The notes below the pieces were generated by a model that was not told the origin of the DNA, did not search any database, and saw only the letters and a program-made list of their open reading frames with translations. Shown piece by piece: positions 21,666-45,418 of a stretch of 45,418 nucleotides of DNA (positions within the stretch are counted from its first letter, which is position 1; each line of letters begins with the position of its first letter). Source of the DNA: Candidatus Methanoperedens sp. (GTDB lineage: Archaea > Halobacteriota > Methanosarcinia > Methanosarcinales > Methanoperedenaceae); the NCBI GenBank assembly GCA_012026795.1, contig VEPM01000035.1:1-45418 (forward strand), given 5' to 3'. The position numbers and the translations under genes were made by a program.

Positions 21666-22985
21666 TTACTGATGCAGCTTATCCGGGTCATATTTGTGTC
21701 CCAGGATGGCATTCGTCATCTGGTCAAGCAGGTATATCGAACCATTGTAGCCCAGGATGGAATACCTGTACACACCAACCCGGTCATAAACAGGGAATCC
21801 AAAGCGCACAAGCGGAACACCCTCATCATCTGCAATATCCTTGCCCTTTGAGTTACCAAGTATCAGTTCTGTCCCCTGCGATTTTACAATTTCGTGGAAT
21901 TCATACAGGTCTGTACCTTCAAGGATCTGCGTATCTGTCTTAAATTCAGTATTTACTGCCTTTATATCAGGTGCAAAGTCCTTATGTTTCGTTGCAGTCA
22001 TCGCTACTGTGGGATTCATCCCTGCTTCAGCGCAGAACCTTACGATGGCTGACACAAGATCAGGGTCGCCGAAAATCGCGACTTTCCGCCCGTACATATA
22101 GTGATGTACGTCAACCATACTGTCTATCAGCCGCCCGCGGTCCCTCTTGATTTCATCCGGGATTGTAGCCCCGCTTAATTTGCTAATGTTCTTCACGAAC
22201 TTATCCGTGTTTGCAATGCCTACAGGCGTTTCTGCAAGGACGGCAGGGACTTTGAACTTGTTCTGGAGATACGTTGCAGCAGAACCTGCTGTCCTGCAAA
22301 CCGCGATAGTGCCCAGTGAATTTGCCGAGTCAATGATATCTGATGGTTCTGTTCCTCCATCGGGCAGCAAAGGCTTGTGACCGCCTGGCATGATAGGTGT
22401 ATCAAGAGTCTCTGAGATATCGGAAAGGAATATGTTTTTCACATTCATGATGCGAAGCATATTCTTTATCTCCCTGATATCTCCGGGATTAATTACGCCC
22501 GTGATGATGTTTATTTTATTATTGGGTTCACCTTTTACGGCGAGTGTTTCCACAAGAGCCCGCATGGCATTATCGTAGCCTGTAACATGAGTGCCTACAT
22601 AGCTGGGAGTGGATGCAGGAATTATCCTCACCGTATCATCGGGCACAACCGCCTTCTTTGATATCAGTTTCACATCATCCCCAATAGTCTCGCTCATGCA
22701 TGTCGTGCATATTCCGATAAGAGCAGGATTTATCCGCGACTTCACGTTCTTTATGGCTTCAGTCAGGTTCTTGGCTCCTCCATATACTGCTGCATCCTCA
22801 GCAAGCGAGGAAACCGCTACTTCTGCGGATTCCCTGAAATGGCGAGCGATATTATATCGGGGATATGTGCTGCATCCCTGGGAACCGTGCACAAGCGGCA
22901 CACAGCCGTGTACTCCCATATAAGCAAGTATGGCGCCCATGGGCTGGCACATCTTTGGAGGATTAATTGTTACACTTCGCGCCAT
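21666..22985 (-). CDS. nifK: Nitrogenase molybdenum-iron protein beta chain
   Basis: 439 residues, beta subunit of dinitrogenase. P-cluster cysteines are at C13 (KMCQPMGA), C38 (HGSQGCSTYPR) and C96 (TTCMSETIGDD). Other landmarks are the TPSYVGTHVTGYDNAM segment and the C-terminal FGFPVYDRVGVYRYSILGYNG. It lacks the N-terminal extension of Azotobacter-type NifK and so is short, like other archaeal NifK. It starts one base after nifD. No delta-subunit (anfG/vnfG) gene intervenes, arguing for a molybdenum-type enzyme. Confidence 0.93.
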   Translation of the reverse strand: MARSVTINPPKMCQPMGAILAYMGVHGCVPLVHGSQGCSTYPRYNIARHFRESAEVAVSSLAEDAAVYGGAKNLTEAIKNVKSRINPALIGICTTCMSETIGDDVKLISKKAVVPDDTVRIIPASTPSYVGTHVTGYDNAMRALVETLAVKGEPNNKINIITGVINPGDIREIKNMLRIMNVKNIFLSDISETLDTPIMPGGHKPLLPDGGTEPSDIIDSANSLGTIAVCRTAGSAATYLQNKFKVPAVLAETPVGIANTDKFVKNISKLSGATIPDEIKRDRGRLIDSMVDVHHYMYGRKVAIFGDPDLVSAIVRFCAEAGMNPTVAMTATKHKDFAPDIKAVNTEFKTDTQILEGTDLYEFHEIVKSQGTELILGNSKGKDIADDEGVPLVRFGFPVYDRVGVYRYSILGYNGSIYLLDQMTNAILGHKYDPDKLHQ

Positions 22986-22986
22986 T

Positions 22987-24357
22987 TTAATTCATCTCCA
23001 GAGGCTGGTTAATAAATTTCCAGACAGGGCTGTTCACTGCGACATCAATGTCCTTTGCGAAATTCACGAATCCCTTAAAGCCAGCATAAGGTCCTTCTTC
23101 GTAGGAATGGCCGTTGATAAATGGAATACCAAGCTTGTATGTAAGGTATTTCTCCTTCAATCCGCCGATAAAGAAGTCCGGCTTGAGCTTTAACAGATAT
23201 TCTTCTATCTCAAGGGCATTCGGATTGTCTATGCAGATATGGCCAGGCTTTGCCTTTTCCATTATTTTCTCATAATCGTCCTTATGACCGAACGTCGTTG
23301 CCGTGAGGATCGTTTCAATGCCAAGTTCGCGCATCGGTCCCATCCAGTGCCAGGCACGCGGAGCCCCCTGGTATATGAAACACTTCTTACCTTCAAGTTT
23401 CTTTCTATAGTGATTGATCCTGGACTGGTACAGTGCAAGCTCTTGTGCTATTACTTTTTCTGCATTTTCTTCTAAATGGAAGAACTTTCCCACATCTCGA
23501 AGTGCCTGTGCAGTTTGAGCCATGCCAAACAGGGATACATTAAGATATGGGATGCCGTACCTATCATGGATCATTTTTGCGATATATGTGGATGACCTCT
23601 GGCACTGCACGATATTCAGCTTTGCCCTGTGCATGGGTGGAATATCGCTATACGAGGCGTTGCCTGTAAATACCGAGAGAACCTTCACACCCATTCGTTC
23701 AAACAACGGCTTGATGATCCAGGCATCGCCGTCGATGTTGAATTCACCCACAATGCACATGTCGTAAGGTGTGGTCTCATGCGGTTCTTCTGTTCCAACT
23801 ACCTTTTCAAACAGCGTGCGGTTGGCGATGTGATGCCCCAGGGACTGGCTCACGCCCCTGAAACCCTCGCAATGGAAGGGTATCACGGGTATCCCGATCT
23901 TTTCCTGGGCCTGTTTGCATATCGAATCAGTATCATCGCCTATCAGCCCGACAACGCATGTTGAATATACGAACACCGCCTTTCCTTCAGGAAAGAGTTC
24001 ATGAGATTCAATAATAGAATTTAGTAGTTTTTTTCCACCGCCGTATATCACGCTTTCTTCTGTCAGGTCTGTACTGAAGCAGTACTTCCTGTGCAGCTTC
24101 GTGTCTGAAAGGTTCCTCCTTGTACCCCAGGTATAGTAGGCACATCCTATCGGTCCGTGCACAAGTTGTATTGCGTCCTTTACAGGCCCGCCAACTACTC
24201 CCCTGCATCCTGCGAATGTGCAGCCGCGCTCGGTCATGTCACCCGGAACTGTCTGGACATTGCATATGGGCAATACCATGTTGTCAGGGTCATGGCAAAT
24301 AATGTGTGGCTGACGCTGCGGTATGGGGATATCGCATTCAGGTAATATGGTTGTCAT
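22987..24357 (-). CDS. nifD: Nitrogenase molybdenum-iron protein alpha chain
   Basis: 456 residues, catalytic subunit holding the FeMo-cofactor. P-cluster cysteines are C46 (ERGCTFAGC), C72 (HGPIGCAYYTW) and C134 (YSTCVVGLIGDD). Cofactor ligands are C252 (NIVQCQRSSTYI) and H417 (INGHSYEEGPY). The Q171/S172/H175 active-site group sits in EGFRGVSQSLGHHIAN, and the arginine gate is in WGTRRN. All functional residues are present, unlike NflD or methanogenesis-cofactor homologues. The sequence style (GGP/GAPRAWHW, FGHKDDYEK) is that of methanogen group III NifD. It follows nifI2 by 51 bases, carrying the RBS, and precedes nifK by one base. Confidence 0.94.
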   Translation of the reverse strand: MTTILPECDIPIPQRQPHIICHDPDNMVLPICNVQTVPGDMTERGCTFAGCRGVVGGPVKDAIQLVHGPIGCAYYTWGTRRNLSDTKLHRKYCFSTDLTEESVIYGGGKKLLNSIIESHELFPEGKAVFVYSTCVVGLIGDDTDSICKQAQEKIGIPVIPFHCEGFRGVSQSLGHHIANRTLFEKVVGTEEPHETTPYDMCIVGEFNIDGDAWIIKPLFERMGVKVLSVFTGNASYSDIPPMHRAKLNIVQCQRSSTYIAKMIHDRYGIPYLNVSLFGMAQTAQALRDVGKFFHLEENAEKVIAQELALYQSRINHYRKKLEGKKCFIYQGAPRAWHWMGPMRELGIETILTATTFGHKDDYEKIMEKAKPGHICIDNPNALEIEEYLLKLKPDFFIGGLKEKYLTYKLGIPFINGHSYEEGPYAGFKGFVNFAKDIDVAVNSPVWKFINQPLEMN

Positions 24358-24408
24358 TTTTACTACTCCTATTTTTTGATATAATTTTTATTTCAACAGT
24401 TTTATGAT

Positions 24409-24786
24409 TTACTTCAAGGCCTGTTCTCCTCTTTCTCCAGTTCTCACTCTCACTGTATCCTCTATGGGGCAGACGAAAATTTTACCATCTCCAATGTGCC
24501 CGCTCTGGTTTGTCCTGATTATGGTTTCAACCACTTTCGGGACATCATCATCCTCGACCATAATTGAAATCATCCTTTTAGGGATAAAGCGCATGCTAAC
24601 CCCTAAGTTTTTTTCCTTTAACTCTGTGAGTGCGGGATCGAGCTCATAATTCCAGCCAGGCAGTCCTTTCTGTTTGCCCCTGCCTTCTACGCTTATCATC
24701 GTAAGCGCTGGCACTCCTATTCCCATAAGCCCGGCTTTTGTCTCCTGCAAATTATGCCTTCGGATTATAGCGATAACTTCCTTCAT
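24409..24786 (-). CDS. nifI2: Nitrogenase PII regulator NifI2
   Basis: 125-residue PII-family protein. The T-loop region is longer than in GlnB (GRGKQKGLPGWNYELDPALTELKEKNLGVSMRFIPKRM) and lacks the uridylylated tyrosine context. The C-terminal DGKIFVCPIEDTVRVRTGERG is the usual PII end. NifI1-NifI2 complexes bind 2-oxoglutarate and ATP and switch off dinitrogenase directly when ammonium is abundant. Position between nifI1 and nifD is the canonical archaeal order. Confidence 0.93.
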   Translation of the reverse strand: MKEVIAIIRRHNLQETKAGLMGIGVPALTMISVEGRGKQKGLPGWNYELDPALTELKEKNLGVSMRFIPKRMISIMVEDDDVPKVVETIIRTNQSGHIGDGKIFVCPIEDTVRVRTGERGEQALK

Positions 24787-24794
24787 ATTTTCAC

Positions 24795-25112
24795 CTATAG
24801 CCCTGATGCGCCTGTCCTCACAGTATAAACTTCTGAAACATCGGTCACGAATATCTTGCCGTCGCCGATATTCCCGGTGCGTGCACTGTTCTGGATGACG
24901 TTGACTGCTTTTGTTACTTCTTCATCATTCACAACAAGCATCAGCATCACTTTGGGCAGCTCGTCGTAGCATACCGTTCCTACCCTGATCCCTTTTTGCC
25001 TGCCGCGCCCGAACACGTTCATCTTGGTGAGGGACACAAATCCTTCTTTTTCCAGGTGCTCAACAACTTTTTCTTCCCTGTTTGGTCTTATTATTGCACG
25101 TATCATCTTCAT
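24795..25112 (-). CDS. nifI1: Nitrogenase PII regulator NifI1
   Basis: 105-residue PII-family protein ([60 protein letters not shown]). The T-loop is short and distinct, as in other NifI1. It is partner of NifI2 in post-translational control of nitrogenase. It starts four bases after nifH with GGAGAGGTGA-type ribosome-binding sequence lying at the nifH end, and nifI2 follows eight bases after it. Confidence 0.93.
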   Translation of the reverse strand: MKMIRAIIRPNREEKVVEHLEKEGFVSLTKMNVFGRGRQKGIRVGTVCYDELPKVMLMLVVNDEEVTKAVNVIQNSARTGNIGDGKIFVTDVSEVYTVRTGASGL

Positions 25113-25116
25113 ATTC

Positions 25117-27415
<2,299 letters not shown>

Positions 27416-42119: not shown

Positions 42120-43589
42120 ATGCAAGAATACAAACTTTTCATTAACGGAGAATGGGTAGCATCAAGCAGTGGCGAGATGTTTGATGACATTAACCCTGCA
42201 ACTCTTGAATTGATAGGGAAGCTTCATAAAGCAAATGAAGATGATGTGAAAAATGCAGCTGATGCAGCAGAGGAGGCGTTTGATACCTGGAGCAGCACTC
42301 CTGCCCCCCGGCGCGCAAAGATATTATTCAGGGGGGCCCGGATGCTTGAAGAGAGAAAAGAAGAGCTTTCACGACTCATGACAATGGAAATGGGAAAAGT
42401 CCTTAAGGAAGCGCGGGGAGATGTCCAGGAGGCGATCGATATGGCATATTATGCAGCAGGAGAAGGTCGTCGTCTTCTGGGAGAAACTACGCCTTCTGAA
42501 CTTGCAGATAAATTCTGCATGACCGTCCGCCACCCCATAGGTGTAGTCGGGCTCATAACACCCTGGAATTTCCCGATAGCGATCCCTGCCTGGAAAATAA
42601 TGCCTGCGCTCATTGCTGGAAACACACTCGTTTTCAAACCTGCAAGCGATACACCCATCCTTTCTATTGAACTTGTAAAAATTCTCCAGGAAGCAGGTCT
42701 TCCCGATGGCGTTTTAAATCTTGTGACTGGTGAGGGAAAAACGGTCGGCAGCGAGATCGTTCATAACAGGAAGATCGGGGCGGTTTCATTCACAGGTTCT
42801 CTTGAAACAGGGAAATGGATATTGGGAGAAGCTGCAAGGGATATGAAAAAAGTATCCCTGGAACTGGGCGGGAAAAATCCCATCATTGTTATGGATGATG
42901 CAGACCTTAACCTTGCAACTGACGGGATTATATGGGGTGCATTCGGAACAACAGGACAGCGATGTACTGCGGCAAGCCGTGTGATTGCGCATGAGAAAAT
43001 CCTTCCTGAGCTTCTGAAAAAGCTTACCGAAAGAACGGAAAAACTTAAAACCGGGAACGGTCTTCTTGATAATATAGACGTGGGGCCGGTCATAAATAAT
43101 TCGCAGCTCCGGAAGATAGCAAGATATGTGGATATCGGAAAAAAAGAAGGCGCAAAACTTGTACTGGGCGGAAATGTTATCAACCCCCTTCCAGGCTACT
43201 TTTTTGAACCTACAATATTTACTGATGTATCACCTGACATGAGGATAGCGCAGGAAGAGATATTCGGCCCGGTTGTTTCTTTGATCAGGGCGCAGGATAT
43301 TGATGATGCGATACATATTGCCAACTCTGTTGAATATGGCCTTTCCTCTTCCATTTATAGTGCAGATTTAAAAAATGCTTTTAAGGCTATTGAAAAAATA
43401 GATGCCGGGATCACATACGTAAACGCATCTACCATCGGAGCAGAGATCCATTTGCCTTTTGGAGGCGTCAAATCCACAGGCAACGGGACCCGCGAAGGTG
43501 GAACGACTGCCATAGAAGAATTTACCGAGTTAAAGACTGTTTATTTTGATTACAGCGGAAAACTACAGAAAGCACAAATTGATATTTGA
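42120..43589 (+). CDS. NAD(P)-dependent aldehyde dehydrogenase (succinate-semialdehyde type)
   Basis: 489 residues of the ALDH superfamily. Landmarks are the cofactor segment GLITPWNFPIAIPAWKIMPALIAGNTLVFKPAS, the FTGS motif (SFTGSLETG), the general base E248 in LELGGKNP, the nucleophile C282 in TTGQRCTAASR, and the C-terminal LPFGGVKSTGNGTREGG. Resemblance is to succinate-semialdehyde and aminoadipate-semialdehyde dehydrogenases. The class III aminotransferase starts 12 bases after it, so the pair probably converts an omega-amino acid (for example GABA) to a semialdehyde and then to the acid. Confidence 0.88.
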   Translation: MQEYKLFINGEWVASSSGEMFDDINPATLELIGKLHKANEDDVKNAADAAEEAFDTWSSTPAPRRAKILFRGARMLEERKEELSRLMTMEMGKVLKEARGDVQEAIDMAYYAAGEGRRLLGETTPSELADKFCMTVRHPIGVVGLITPWNFPIAIPAWKIMPALIAGNTLVFKPASDTPILSIELVKILQEAGLPDGVLNLVTGEGKTVGSEIVHNRKIGAVSFTGSLETGKWILGEAARDMKKVSLELGGKNPIIVMDDADLNLATDGIIWGAFGTTGQRCTAASRVIAHEKILPELLKKLTERTEKLKTGNGLLDNIDVGPVINNSQLRKIARYVDIGKKEGAKLVLGGNVINPLPGYFFEPTIFTDVSPDMRIAQEEIFGPVVSLIRAQDIDDAIHIANSVEYGLSSSIYSADLKNAFKAIEKIDAGITYVNASTIGAEIHLPFGGVKSTGNGTREGGTTAIEEFTELKTVYFDYSGKLQKAQIDI

Positions 43590-43600
43590 TAGGAGAAATT

Positions 43601-44881
43601 ATGCAAGAGAAAAACCAAACATCAAGAGAGATAATAAACCGGGACCGTAAAGTCGCATCGCCATCCCTCACACGCGCTTTTGACCTTGTTGTTGACCATG
43701 CAGAAGGTTCAACGATATTCGATATTGAAGGAAATGCTTATATCGATTTTGCGTCAAGCGTTGCGGTAATGAATATCGGCTATAACTGCAAGAAGGTAAA
43801 GCAGGCGGTATGTGCCCAGATGGAAAAAATGGTGCATTGCGGATATTCGGATTTTTACGCAGAGGAACCAGTAAAACTGTGTGAAAAACTGTGCGAAATG
43901 ACTGGTTACGAAAAGGTTTTCCTTTCTAATTCAGGAACAGAAGCTGTTGAGGCTGCAATGAAACTTGCTTTCTGGTATACAGGAAAAACAAGCATGATCG
44001 CATTTTACCGCGCGTTTCATGGCAGGACCCTTGGCGCACTTTCTCTTACCAGTTCCAAAATAAAGCATAAAGAGCATTTTCCATCATTGCGGGTCTTACA
44101 TTCGGATTATGCTTACTGTTACCGTTGCCCTCTTAACCTTGAATATCCCGAATGCGGCATATCCTGCGCAAAAGAGATCGAGCGGACTATTTTTAAAAGG
44201 GAACTGTCCCCGAAGGATACGGCTGCCATCGTTGTTGAACCCATACAGGGAGAGGGAGGATTCATAGTCCCGCCGCCAGAGTTTCATAAAGAGATCAGGA
44301 GGATATGCGACGAAAACGATGTGTTGATGATAGCAGATGAGATCCAGAGCGGCGGATTCCGGACCGGGAAGTTCATGGCGCTTGAGAATTTTGATGTAAG
44401 GGCGGATATTGTCTGTATGTCCAAATCTATCGGTGGAGGCATACCACTGGGAGCAACGCTATCGAGCAGCAGGATAATGAACTGGCCACCGGGAACCCAT
44501 GCAAACACATTTGGCGGAAACCTGCTTGCTGCCGCAGGAGGGTTTGCAACACTTGATTTCATGGAGAGTGCAAAGCTTGGCGAAAAGGCAGTTCAAAAAG
44601 GGAATTATCTCATAAAACGATTGAATGAACTGAAAGAAAAATACCCGGTAATCGGGGATGTCCGGGGCATCGGGCTTATGACAGGTGTGGAATTTGTGGA
44701 AGAAAATAAAGCCCCGGCCATTGAAAAAAGAGATTTGGTCATTAAAAATTCGCTTGACGGGGGGCTGATATTATTGCCGGCAGGTGATTCCGTAATAAGG
44801 TTCGTACCTCCGCTGATAATTAAAAATAGTGAACTCGATAAAGGTCTTGAGATATTTGAGACTGCCCTTAGATCAATTTGA
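43601..44881 (+). CDS. Class III PLP aminotransferase (omega-amino acid/GABA type)
   Basis: 426 residues from ATG 43601 with AGGAG five bases upstream. Conserved points are FLSNSGTEAVEAAMKLA (phosphate binding), YRAFHGRTLGALSLT, the cofactor aspartate in MIADEIQSGGFRTGKF, the Schiff-base lysine in CMSKSIGGGIPLGA and the THANTFGGNLLAAAGG loop. A four-cysteine insert (YAYCYRCPLNLEYPECGISC, about 170-190) is found in some archaeal members and may hold a metal. The family includes 4-aminobutyrate, ornithine and lysine aminotransferases. Partner of the upstream dehydrogenase. Confidence 0.88.
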   Translation: MQEKNQTSREIINRDRKVASPSLTRAFDLVVDHAEGSTIFDIEGNAYIDFASSVAVMNIGYNCKKVKQAVCAQMEKMVHCGYSDFYAEEPVKLCEKLCEMTGYEKVFLSNSGTEAVEAAMKLAFWYTGKTSMIAFYRAFHGRTLGALSLTSSKIKHKEHFPSLRVLHSDYAYCYRCPLNLEYPECGISCAKEIERTIFKRELSPKDTAAIVVEPIQGEGGFIVPPPEFHKEIRRICDENDVLMIADEIQSGGFRTGKFMALENFDVRADIVCMSKSIGGGIPLGATLSSSRIMNWPPGTHANTFGGNLLAAAGGFATLDFMESAKLGEKAVQKGNYLIKRLNELKEKYPVIGDVRGIGLMTGVEFVEENKAPAIEKRDLVIKNSLDGGLILLPAGDSVIRFVPPLIIKNSELDKGLEIFETALRSI

Positions 44882-44916
44882 TCTACATTTGGTTTTCACA
44901 CAATTTTTTGTTTCCA

Positions 44917-44955
44917 ATCGTAAACTATATATACCATTGTTCGCGTATATACGAA
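44917..44955 (+). promoter_or_regulatory. TATA and 16-bp palindrome, small-RNA cassette 1
   Basis: ATCGTAAACTAT followed by the TATA stretch ATATATACC, then TTCGCGTATATACGAA at 44940-44955. The palindrome has one mismatch. The distance from ATCG to the palindrome is 23 bp in all three cassettes. Confidence 0.7.
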
Positions 44956-45018
44956 TTGAGTGGGCAGAAAATATTTTCATTGAATCACCACCGTAATCTA
45001 TTCTGCTCACACTTTTAT
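44955..45018 (+). ncRNA. Predicted small RNA 1 with C-rich hairpin loop
   Basis: Starting about 26 bases after the TATA centre, the transcript would begin at the end of the palindrome. GTGGGCAGAA (44960-44969) pairs with TTCTGCTCAC (45001-45010) with one G-U. The loop contains ATCACCACC, close to the archaeal 16S 3' tail ATCACCTCC. CTTTTATTC follows the hairpin. No start codon or usable frame is present, so a non-coding product is likely. Confidence 0.6.
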
Positions 45019-45065
45019 TCATATATTTCTAACACAATTGACAACAATTTAATTGGTTTACATAG

Positions 45066-45104
45066 ATCGTAAACTATAAATACTATTGTTCGTATATGTA
45101 CGAA
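45066..45104 (+). promoter_or_regulatory. TATA and 16-bp palindrome, small-RNA cassette 2
   Basis: ATCGTAAACTATAAATAC with TATA centre near 45078 and TTCGTATATGTACGAA at 45089-45104. The palindrome occupies the span between TATA box and transcription start, typical for a repressor operator. Confidence 0.7.
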
Positions 45105-45162
45105 TTGTAGTGAGCAGAATTTTTTTCCACCACCATAATCCTTTCTGCTCACTAACGCCTTT
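45104..45162 (+). ncRNA. Predicted small RNA 2 with C-rich hairpin loop
   Basis: AGTGAGCAGAA (45109-45119) and TTCTGCTCACT (45143-45153) form a perfect 11-bp stem around a 23-base loop carrying CCACCACCATAATCC. Stem changes against copy 1 keep pairing (GTGGG-U changed to GTGAG-C-U), which favours a functional RNA stem. Confidence 0.62.
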
Positions 45163-45209
45163 CCTCATGGTTATGACACAATCGGGAATAATTCAATCTG
45201 TTTACGCTA

Positions 45210-45248
45210 ATCGTAAACTATAAATACAATTGTTCGTATATATACGAA
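45210..45248 (+). promoter_or_regulatory. TATA and 16-bp palindrome, small-RNA cassette 3
   Basis: ATCGTAAACTATAAATAC with TATA centre near 45222 and a perfect TTCGTATATATACGAA at 45233-45248, same spacing as the other two. Confidence 0.7.
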
Positions 45249-45315
45249 TTGCAGTGGGCAGAAAAATAAACTTATCCATAGTACATATTCCCCCTCCTGC
45301 CCACTCGCTTTTATC
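45248..45315 (+). ncRNA. Predicted small RNA 3 with C-rich hairpin loop
   Basis: AGTGGGCAG (45253-45261) and CTGCCCACT (45297-45305) form a perfect 9-bp stem. Relative to copy 2 both arms changed together (A to G and T to C). The loop, otherwise unlike copies 1 and 2, ends in CCCCCTCC. CGCTTTTATCC follows. Confidence 0.62.
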
Positions 45316-45320
45316 CAAAT

Positions 45321-45334
45321 TAGGACTTACGCAT
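45321..45334. mobile_element. Possible insertion-sequence terminus
   Basis: TAGGACTTACGCAT resembles the GGACTTACGCA-type ends of common IS elements and abuts the end of the partial frame at 45327. The other end lies outside the window. Confidence 0.4.
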
Positions 45335-45416
45335 TTATCCTCAAATAATTATTTACAGCGTATCTATTGATAGTCGCCTTTTGCTCATACCACGATATAT
45401 GCTCCTTTAACCGTCT
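45327..45416 (-). CDS. Partial C-terminus of a possible transposase
   Basis: The minus-strand frame entering from the right edge encodes 29 residues (RRLKEHISWYEQKATINRY, then AVNNYLRINA) before its stop codon. The stop lies within the possible IS end, the usual layout of a transposase tail. No catalytic residue is in view. Confidence 0.45.
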   Translation of the reverse strand, partial: RRLKEHISWYEQKATINRYAVNNYLRINA

Positions 45417-45418
45417 AA

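Follow-up and report, generated by a model that had tools for sequence, protein, structure and literature searches.

The three tandem units at positions 44915-45316 of the window (the whole 45,418-nt stretch analysed, contig C35 of a 3.59-Mb archaeal genome of Candidatus Methanoperedens, ANME-2d) are best read as sibling small RNA (sRNA) genes of a family repressed by the redox sensor MsvR. Sequence analysis documents the gene family, its structure and conservation, the MsvR box, the presence of MsvR and a shared regulon. We consider it probable that these tandem, MsvR-repressed genes are induced by oxidation and that their sibling sRNAs act by pairing with mRNAs.

In each unit, an archaeal BRE/TATA box is followed by a palindrome where transcription is expected to start and by a hairpin of ~70 nt whose loop is C-rich and almost devoid of G. 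The array lies at the contig end, downstream of an aminotransferase gene (43586-44881), and copy 1 begins ~35 nt past the end of that gene. The original prediction described three units spaced 149 and 144 bp apart, each carrying ATCGTAAACTATA(A/T)ATA and, exactly 23 bp further on, a 16-bp palindrome. Positions and spacings agree with the sequence, as the promoter motifs start at 44917, 45066 and 45210 and the boxes at 44940, 45089 and 45233. The palindrome is perfect in copy 3 (TTCGTATATATACGAA), but copy 1 departs from this sequence at two bases and copy 2 at one, and the stem follows after 4-5 bases rather than the predicted five to six. The differences between stems are compensatory, as had been claimed, with the varying position read as G-U, A-U and G-C in copies 1, 2 and 3, and the C-rich loop words ATCACCACC, CCACCACC and CCCCCTCC are all present. 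At up to three mismatches, the palindrome occurs three times in the window versus 0.22 expected, and no shuffle reached three.

All elements of the array lie on the forward strand. In copy 1, the BRE/TATA promoter element ATCGTAAACTATATATAC (44917-44934) precedes a MsvR box, TTCGCGTATATACGAA (44940-44955), which fits the published motif TTCGN8CGAA (PMC3729527). Predicted sRNA 1 (44956-45025; covariance model match 44915-45022, 103.8 bits), with its start placed at the TATA centre +27 and its end uncertain, contains a hairpin with the stem AGTGGGCAGA ... TCTGCTCAC (44959-45010) and the loop word ATCACCACC (44984-44992). Copy 2 comprises the promoter element ATCGTAAACTATAAATAC (45066-45083), which is an archaeal BRE/TATA box, the MsvR box TTCGTATATGTACGAA (45089-45104) and predicted sRNA 2 (45105-45170, start estimated; match 45064-45164, 108.2 bits), whose hairpin has perfect 12-bp arms, TAGTGAGCAGAA / TTCTGCTCACTA (45108-45154), around the loop word CCACCACC (45127-45134). 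The same promoter element recurs in copy 3 (45210-45227), followed by a box identical to the MsvR consensus (45233-45248) and predicted sRNA 3 (45249-45320, start likewise estimated; match 45208-45316, 115.2 bits), with the stem AGTGGGCAG ... CTGCCCACT (45253-45305) and the loop word CCCCCTCC (45290-45297). The TATA centre lies ~27 nt ahead of the palindrome end, a spacing also reported between the TATA box and the start site of a Methanosarcina msvR gene (PMC3729527), and the RNAs are therefore predicted to start near 44956, 45105 and 45249. With these starts, the palindrome would sit between the TATA box and the start site, where a repressor blocks polymerase. No conserved open reading frame (ORF) is present, in line with the original prediction. 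An antisense-strand micro-ORF, considered because the reverse complement reads SD-ATG-GTG, was rejected, as its frames are interrupted from copy to copy. The contig stops ~100 nt beyond copy 3 (45320-45418), so further array units could follow. Elsewhere, the window holds a nitrogenase cluster (nifH, two P-II genes, nifD and nifK; 21666-26208, - strand) and a divergent ammonium transporter gene (26099-27415, + strand).

The genome contains six copies of the unit: three in the window, two in tandem on contig C29 and one on contig C11. A covariance model made from these six and searched against 34 Methanoperedenaceae genomes from three genera found the unit in all 34, with 1-9 copies per genome (median 4, counting matches at E up to 1e-6). 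Tandem copies occur in ~12 of the Methanoperedenaceae genomes, and 19 tandem neighbours were counted besides those of the window genome. Moreover, a scan of GTDB contigs with the stem-loop, leaving out the promoter, recovered Candidatus Methanoperedens nitroreducens, Methanoperedens BLZ2, Mnv1 and many other Methanoperedens, together with a few unrelated bacterial matches that we took as chance. From 80 fetched loci, 108 family members were aligned, and the BRE/TATA element is in register across all of them. The same sRNA loci recur across species, namely beside a UbiD-like gene and a tyrosine recombinase gene, beside the aminotransferase gene (the window locus) and beside an HdrB-like gene; apart from the aminotransferase, these names are our reading of the sequences. 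A plasmid origin was considered and dropped for want of any match. By their layout, with a TATA promoter of their own, a convergent downstream gene and no reading frame, the units are predicted to be stand-alone sRNA genes.

The hairpin is kept by compensatory change. Among the Methanoperedens members, 7 of the 10 stem pairs change on both sides (29 cells versus 9 in shuffles); when distant relatives are added, all 10 pairs carry compensatory changes (141 cells versus 42), and none of 500 shuffles reaches the score. Because members were aligned by fitting to the model, these figures are biased towards the structure; the outer six stem pairs are still recovered when the sequences are realigned independently with MAFFT. 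The loop of ~34 nt runs from an A-rich part through a U-run into a C-rich stretch. Runs of at least five U are found in 100 of 108 members, ACCACC in 94 and CCACCATAATC in 58; after the U-run, G makes up less than 2% of the loop, and the C-rich motif is unpaired with a mean probability of 0.97 across the family. Of the 108 members, 68 contain CCTCC (CCUCC in the RNA), for the most part in the tail 3' of the stem, but the tails of all three window copies lack it. A conserved T-run terminator right after the hairpin was rejected, since T4 runs are about as frequent there (61/108) as 100 nt further on (57/106). Loss of stem pairing and of C-rich loops at homologous loci would have counted against the original prediction; both features are retained.

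The "shared operator" of the original prediction is, letter for letter, the published MsvR box. In Methanothermobacter thermautotrophicus, MsvR boxes form TTCGTAN4TACGAA, the general motif being TTCGN7-9CGAA; the M. acetivorans protein binds DNA only when reduced and has been proposed to be a repressor, and MsvR boxes precede all known msvR genes (PMC3729527). TTCGN8CGAA is found in 105 of the 108 family members and in the three window copies. The stricter TTCGTAN4TACGAA occurs nine times in the window genome versus none for the reversed control pattern, and across six genomes the strict pattern gave 2-12 occurrences versus 0-1 for the control. The regulator itself is encoded in the genome: one protein combines an ArsR-type HTH (HTH_5) with a V4R domain (L288, 1489-2226, - strand) and is MsvR by the NCBIfam equivalog NF053755 (255.8 bits versus a cut-off of 220). 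Its gene carries the box TTCGTACATAAACGAA 33 nt before the ATG, and in all eight family genomes tested the distance from such a box to the downstream msvR is 33-34 nt. Judged by the presence of this box, msvR would be autoregulated through the same operator. The claim of a co-regulated sibling sRNA family under one repressor is thus well supported by the separate TATA promoters, the covarying stem, the occurrence in 34/34 genomes, the operator matching the MsvR consensus and the box at msvR.

The commonest MsvR-box targets that we found are the sRNA genes, alongside nifB-like genes and ahbC. A box at a fixed position, 27-33 nt before the start, precedes a NifB-like radical SAM gene in 26/30 family genomes; the best equivalog for this protein is NifB, at a score below that model's cut-off. 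In three genomes each, a box stands before ahbC (12,18-didecarboxysiroheme deacetylase, above cut-off), before a gene for a hybrid-cluster-protein-associated redox disulfide protein (DUF1858) and, as TTCGTACCNATACGAA, upstream of a gene for a small membrane protein of 96-98 aa with no known family. If the proposed control is correct, the sRNA network would be coordinated with genes for the synthesis of heme and of the nitrogenase cofactor. The small membrane protein gene adjoins the C29 sRNA pair (L009 3896-4192, - strand; also L271 2073-2363 and L279). Two further observations concern these promoters. A conserved block, GGGAAAATACCTAWATAGTAT, lies ~20 nt ahead of the MsvR box upstream of the NifB-like gene in most genomes (L164-L193); apart from the TATA box, it may contain another operator. 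Additionally, a MsvR-type box precedes a conserved 52-aa ORF (MTR..RK.TDRLHCTYSAIIDI.E...) in two species (L276 and L280, position 2001), and this ORF may encode a small protein under regulation.

What we infer from this arrangement is that the genes are transcribed, in which direction they are controlled and how they act on mRNAs. The three tandem genes would encode sibling trans-acting sRNAs of ~70 nt, each from its own TATA promoter. In a reduced cell, each sRNA gene would be kept off by a MsvR dimer bound to the box that immediately precedes the start site; upon oxidation, MsvR would release the box and the whole sRNA set would be transcribed. Each sRNA would form one hairpin presenting a G-free, C-rich loop, often with a CCUCC tail, and loop or tail would pair with purine-rich mRNA stretches, most likely ribosome-binding sites, lowering translation. 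The set would thereby parallel OxyS or LhrC of bacteria, with redox as its signal. That the loops are C-rich, G-free and single-stranded points to such pairing with ribosome-binding sites, as in LhrC (PMC4132741) and as has been proposed for sRNA154 and sRNA41 (PMC5867862).

The pairing was examined on 367 predicted gene starts, placed by a simple heuristic in ~445 kb of the window genome, with 12 shuffles. The tail ACUAUCCUCCUAUU favoured starts over coding sequence by -1.52 kcal/mol versus -1.06 +/- 0.18 for shuffles, none of the 12 being as good, whereas the loop consensus reached -1.18 versus -1.04 +/- 0.21 for shuffled loops. The loop as a general anti-Shine-Dalgarno element was therefore rejected, its start preference not exceeding that of composition-matched shuffles. 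A search of 34 genomes for the 14-nt loop complement gave no conserved start region, only sRNA copies and scattered coding matches. A unique mRNA target with such complementarity was likewise dismissed, because exact matches are sRNA copies and recurrent one-mismatch matches fall inside coding sequence. The original prediction had proposed translation control by anti-Shine-Dalgarno pairing, with target prediction on start regions as a check; its outcome is divided, as the CCUCC tail stands above shuffles, the loop stays within their range, and a search for a conserved mRNA target came up empty. Translation control by such pairing is plausible but unproven.

Pairing with mRNAs remains our leading inference, and its serious rival, to which we give a minor but real share of belief, is that the RNAs are MsvR-controlled but sequester, as decoys (sponges), an RNA-binding protein specific for single-stranded UACCACCAUAAUCCCC or the U-run. 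Such a role would suit a loop that is kept across species and copies and yet lacks a 14-nt complement at any gene start in the 34 genomes and a start-site preference beyond shuffles; titration suits multicopy RNAs, and the frequent U5+ runs could bind an archaeal Sm-like protein. However, relatives outside the family carry a different C-rich motif, CCCCCACUCCCC, which suggests that composition is kept and not one protein site, and no binding protein is known. It is less probable still that the RNAs are sRNAs of a Methanoperedens family whose operator is read by a factor other than MsvR. The link between MsvR and the site comes from sequence, the genome encodes two NrpR-domain proteins (G000:C40 and G000:C15; L052, L053), and nifB-like genes carry the box. 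The classic target of NrpR is nifH, and the nifH promoter of the nitrogenase cluster in the window has no MsvR box. Nitrogen regulation by NrpR, considered on account of the nif genes in the window and the box at nifB-like genes, was rejected on this ground and because the box is the MsvR consensus. MsvR binding does need promoter context, as TTCGN8CGAA by itself was insufficient at M. acetivorans rpoK (PMC3729527), but the identity of the box with the consensus and its constant distance from msvR, as in methanogens, argue for MsvR as the factor.

Two further readings are very improbable. A strong intergenic hairpin, with copy 1 so close behind the aminotransferase gene, might be a leader element (riboswitch or attenuator) or a terminator of an adjacent gene. 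Against this, 70/81 clusters are followed by a gene on the opposite strand, a separate TATA box and operator accompany every hairpin, and the hairpins occur as tandem copies and in several unrelated neighbourhoods. Multiple similar copies, partly in tandem, might equally mark a dispersed repeat or miniature mobile element, but orthologous positions are retained between species, stems change in a compensatory way while spacers drift, and relatives across the order are mostly single copies. Since no member (0/108) lies inside an ORF of at least 150 aa, the next gene is convergent and loci recur across species, we exclude leaders, and the same facts argue against a mobile repeat.

Sibling sRNAs under one regulator are a known kind; those of Methanoperedens are archaeal and probably under a redox repressor. 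E. coli OxyS has OxyR as its activator. As proposed for the Methanoperedens sRNAs, a redox-sensing transcription factor induces OxyS (mentioned in PMC5867862) upon oxidation, but OxyS is single copy and unrelated in sequence. The five LhrC sRNAs of Listeria monocytogenes (LhrC1-5) are multicopy siblings under one regulator whose single-stranded C-rich motifs pair with Shine-Dalgarno sequences (PMC4132741). The Methanoperedens sRNAs share the multicopy design, the single regulator and the C-rich single-stranded motifs, whereas LhrC1-5 are bacterial, activated (by LisR) rather than repressed, carry UCCC motifs in three places and have no sequence relation. Among archaea, sRNA154 (through its loop 2) and sRNA41 of Methanosarcina mazei, which are likewise intergenic and trans-acting, have been proposed to mask ribosome-binding sites (reviewed in PMC5867862); these are nitrogen-regulated, in contrast to a multicopy family with a redox-regulator operator. 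The MsvR regulon of the methanogens Methanothermobacter and Methanosarcina acetivorans (PMC3729527) has the same box, regulator family and promoter position, and probably the same autoregulation, but the targets discussed there are protein-coding genes, while in Methanoperedens the commonest ones found are sRNA genes. Over the three-unit region, no Rfam family scores above its cut-off, and none, LhrC included, is plausible at E up to 5. The open full-text literature, the scope of our search as distinct from subscription journals, holds no paper on Methanoperedens small RNAs or on a link between MsvR and sRNAs.

The family, present in every Methanoperedenaceae genome searched, would be the first tie of MsvR to small regulatory RNAs in archaea and a clear archaeal example of sibling sRNA genes that all carry one operator. 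It also offers a concrete, testable MsvR regulon that goes beyond the published descriptions we found. In anoxic sediments, Methanoperedens links the oxidation of methane to the reduction of nitrate and metals, and the finding bears on how such strict anaerobes may respond to oxidants at the RNA level; if our reading is true, an archaeal OxyS-like network would tune translation when anaerobic methane oxidisers meet oxidants.

A divergent hairpin RNA was found in several families across Methanosarcinales, usually one or two per genome and mostly single copy (L340-L369), with neighbours that are constant within a family. The first model gave only weak matches outside Methanoperedenaceae, and the 108-member model gave stronger ones for most of these relatives, e.g. 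7e-7 to 3.6e-8. As in the Methanoperedens units, a TATA box lies ~30 nt before the stem; the stem GUGAGCGGGU/ACCCGCUCAC aligns pair by pair with that of Methanoperedens, and U-run, a G-free C-rich loop of equal length (sequence AACCCCCACUCCCC) and a C/U-rich tail are shared. The loop motif is CCCCCACUCCCC, where Methanoperedens has ACCACCAUAAUCCCC, and the MsvR box is present in 0/32 of the order-wide RNAs. On the rough E-values and shared layout, homology is likely rather than convergence. Because the relatives share the design, are found in one or two copies and lack the MsvR box, the Methanoperedens genes appear to descend from an older sRNA, as a branch that was amplified and came under the control of MsvR. 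We lean slightly towards a scenario in which an ancestral Methanosarcinales hairpin sRNA was duplicated up to ~9 times in ANME-2d, gained the MsvR box and became the main MsvR output. The order-level relative can be tested in the genetically tractable Methanosarcina. In two Methanosarcinales genomes outside Methanoperedenaceae the hairpin RNA is itself in tandem, and in two others CCCCCACUCCCC is doubled within one hairpin (tandem or doubled loci: L348 1501-1859, L355 1501-1805, L361 and L363).
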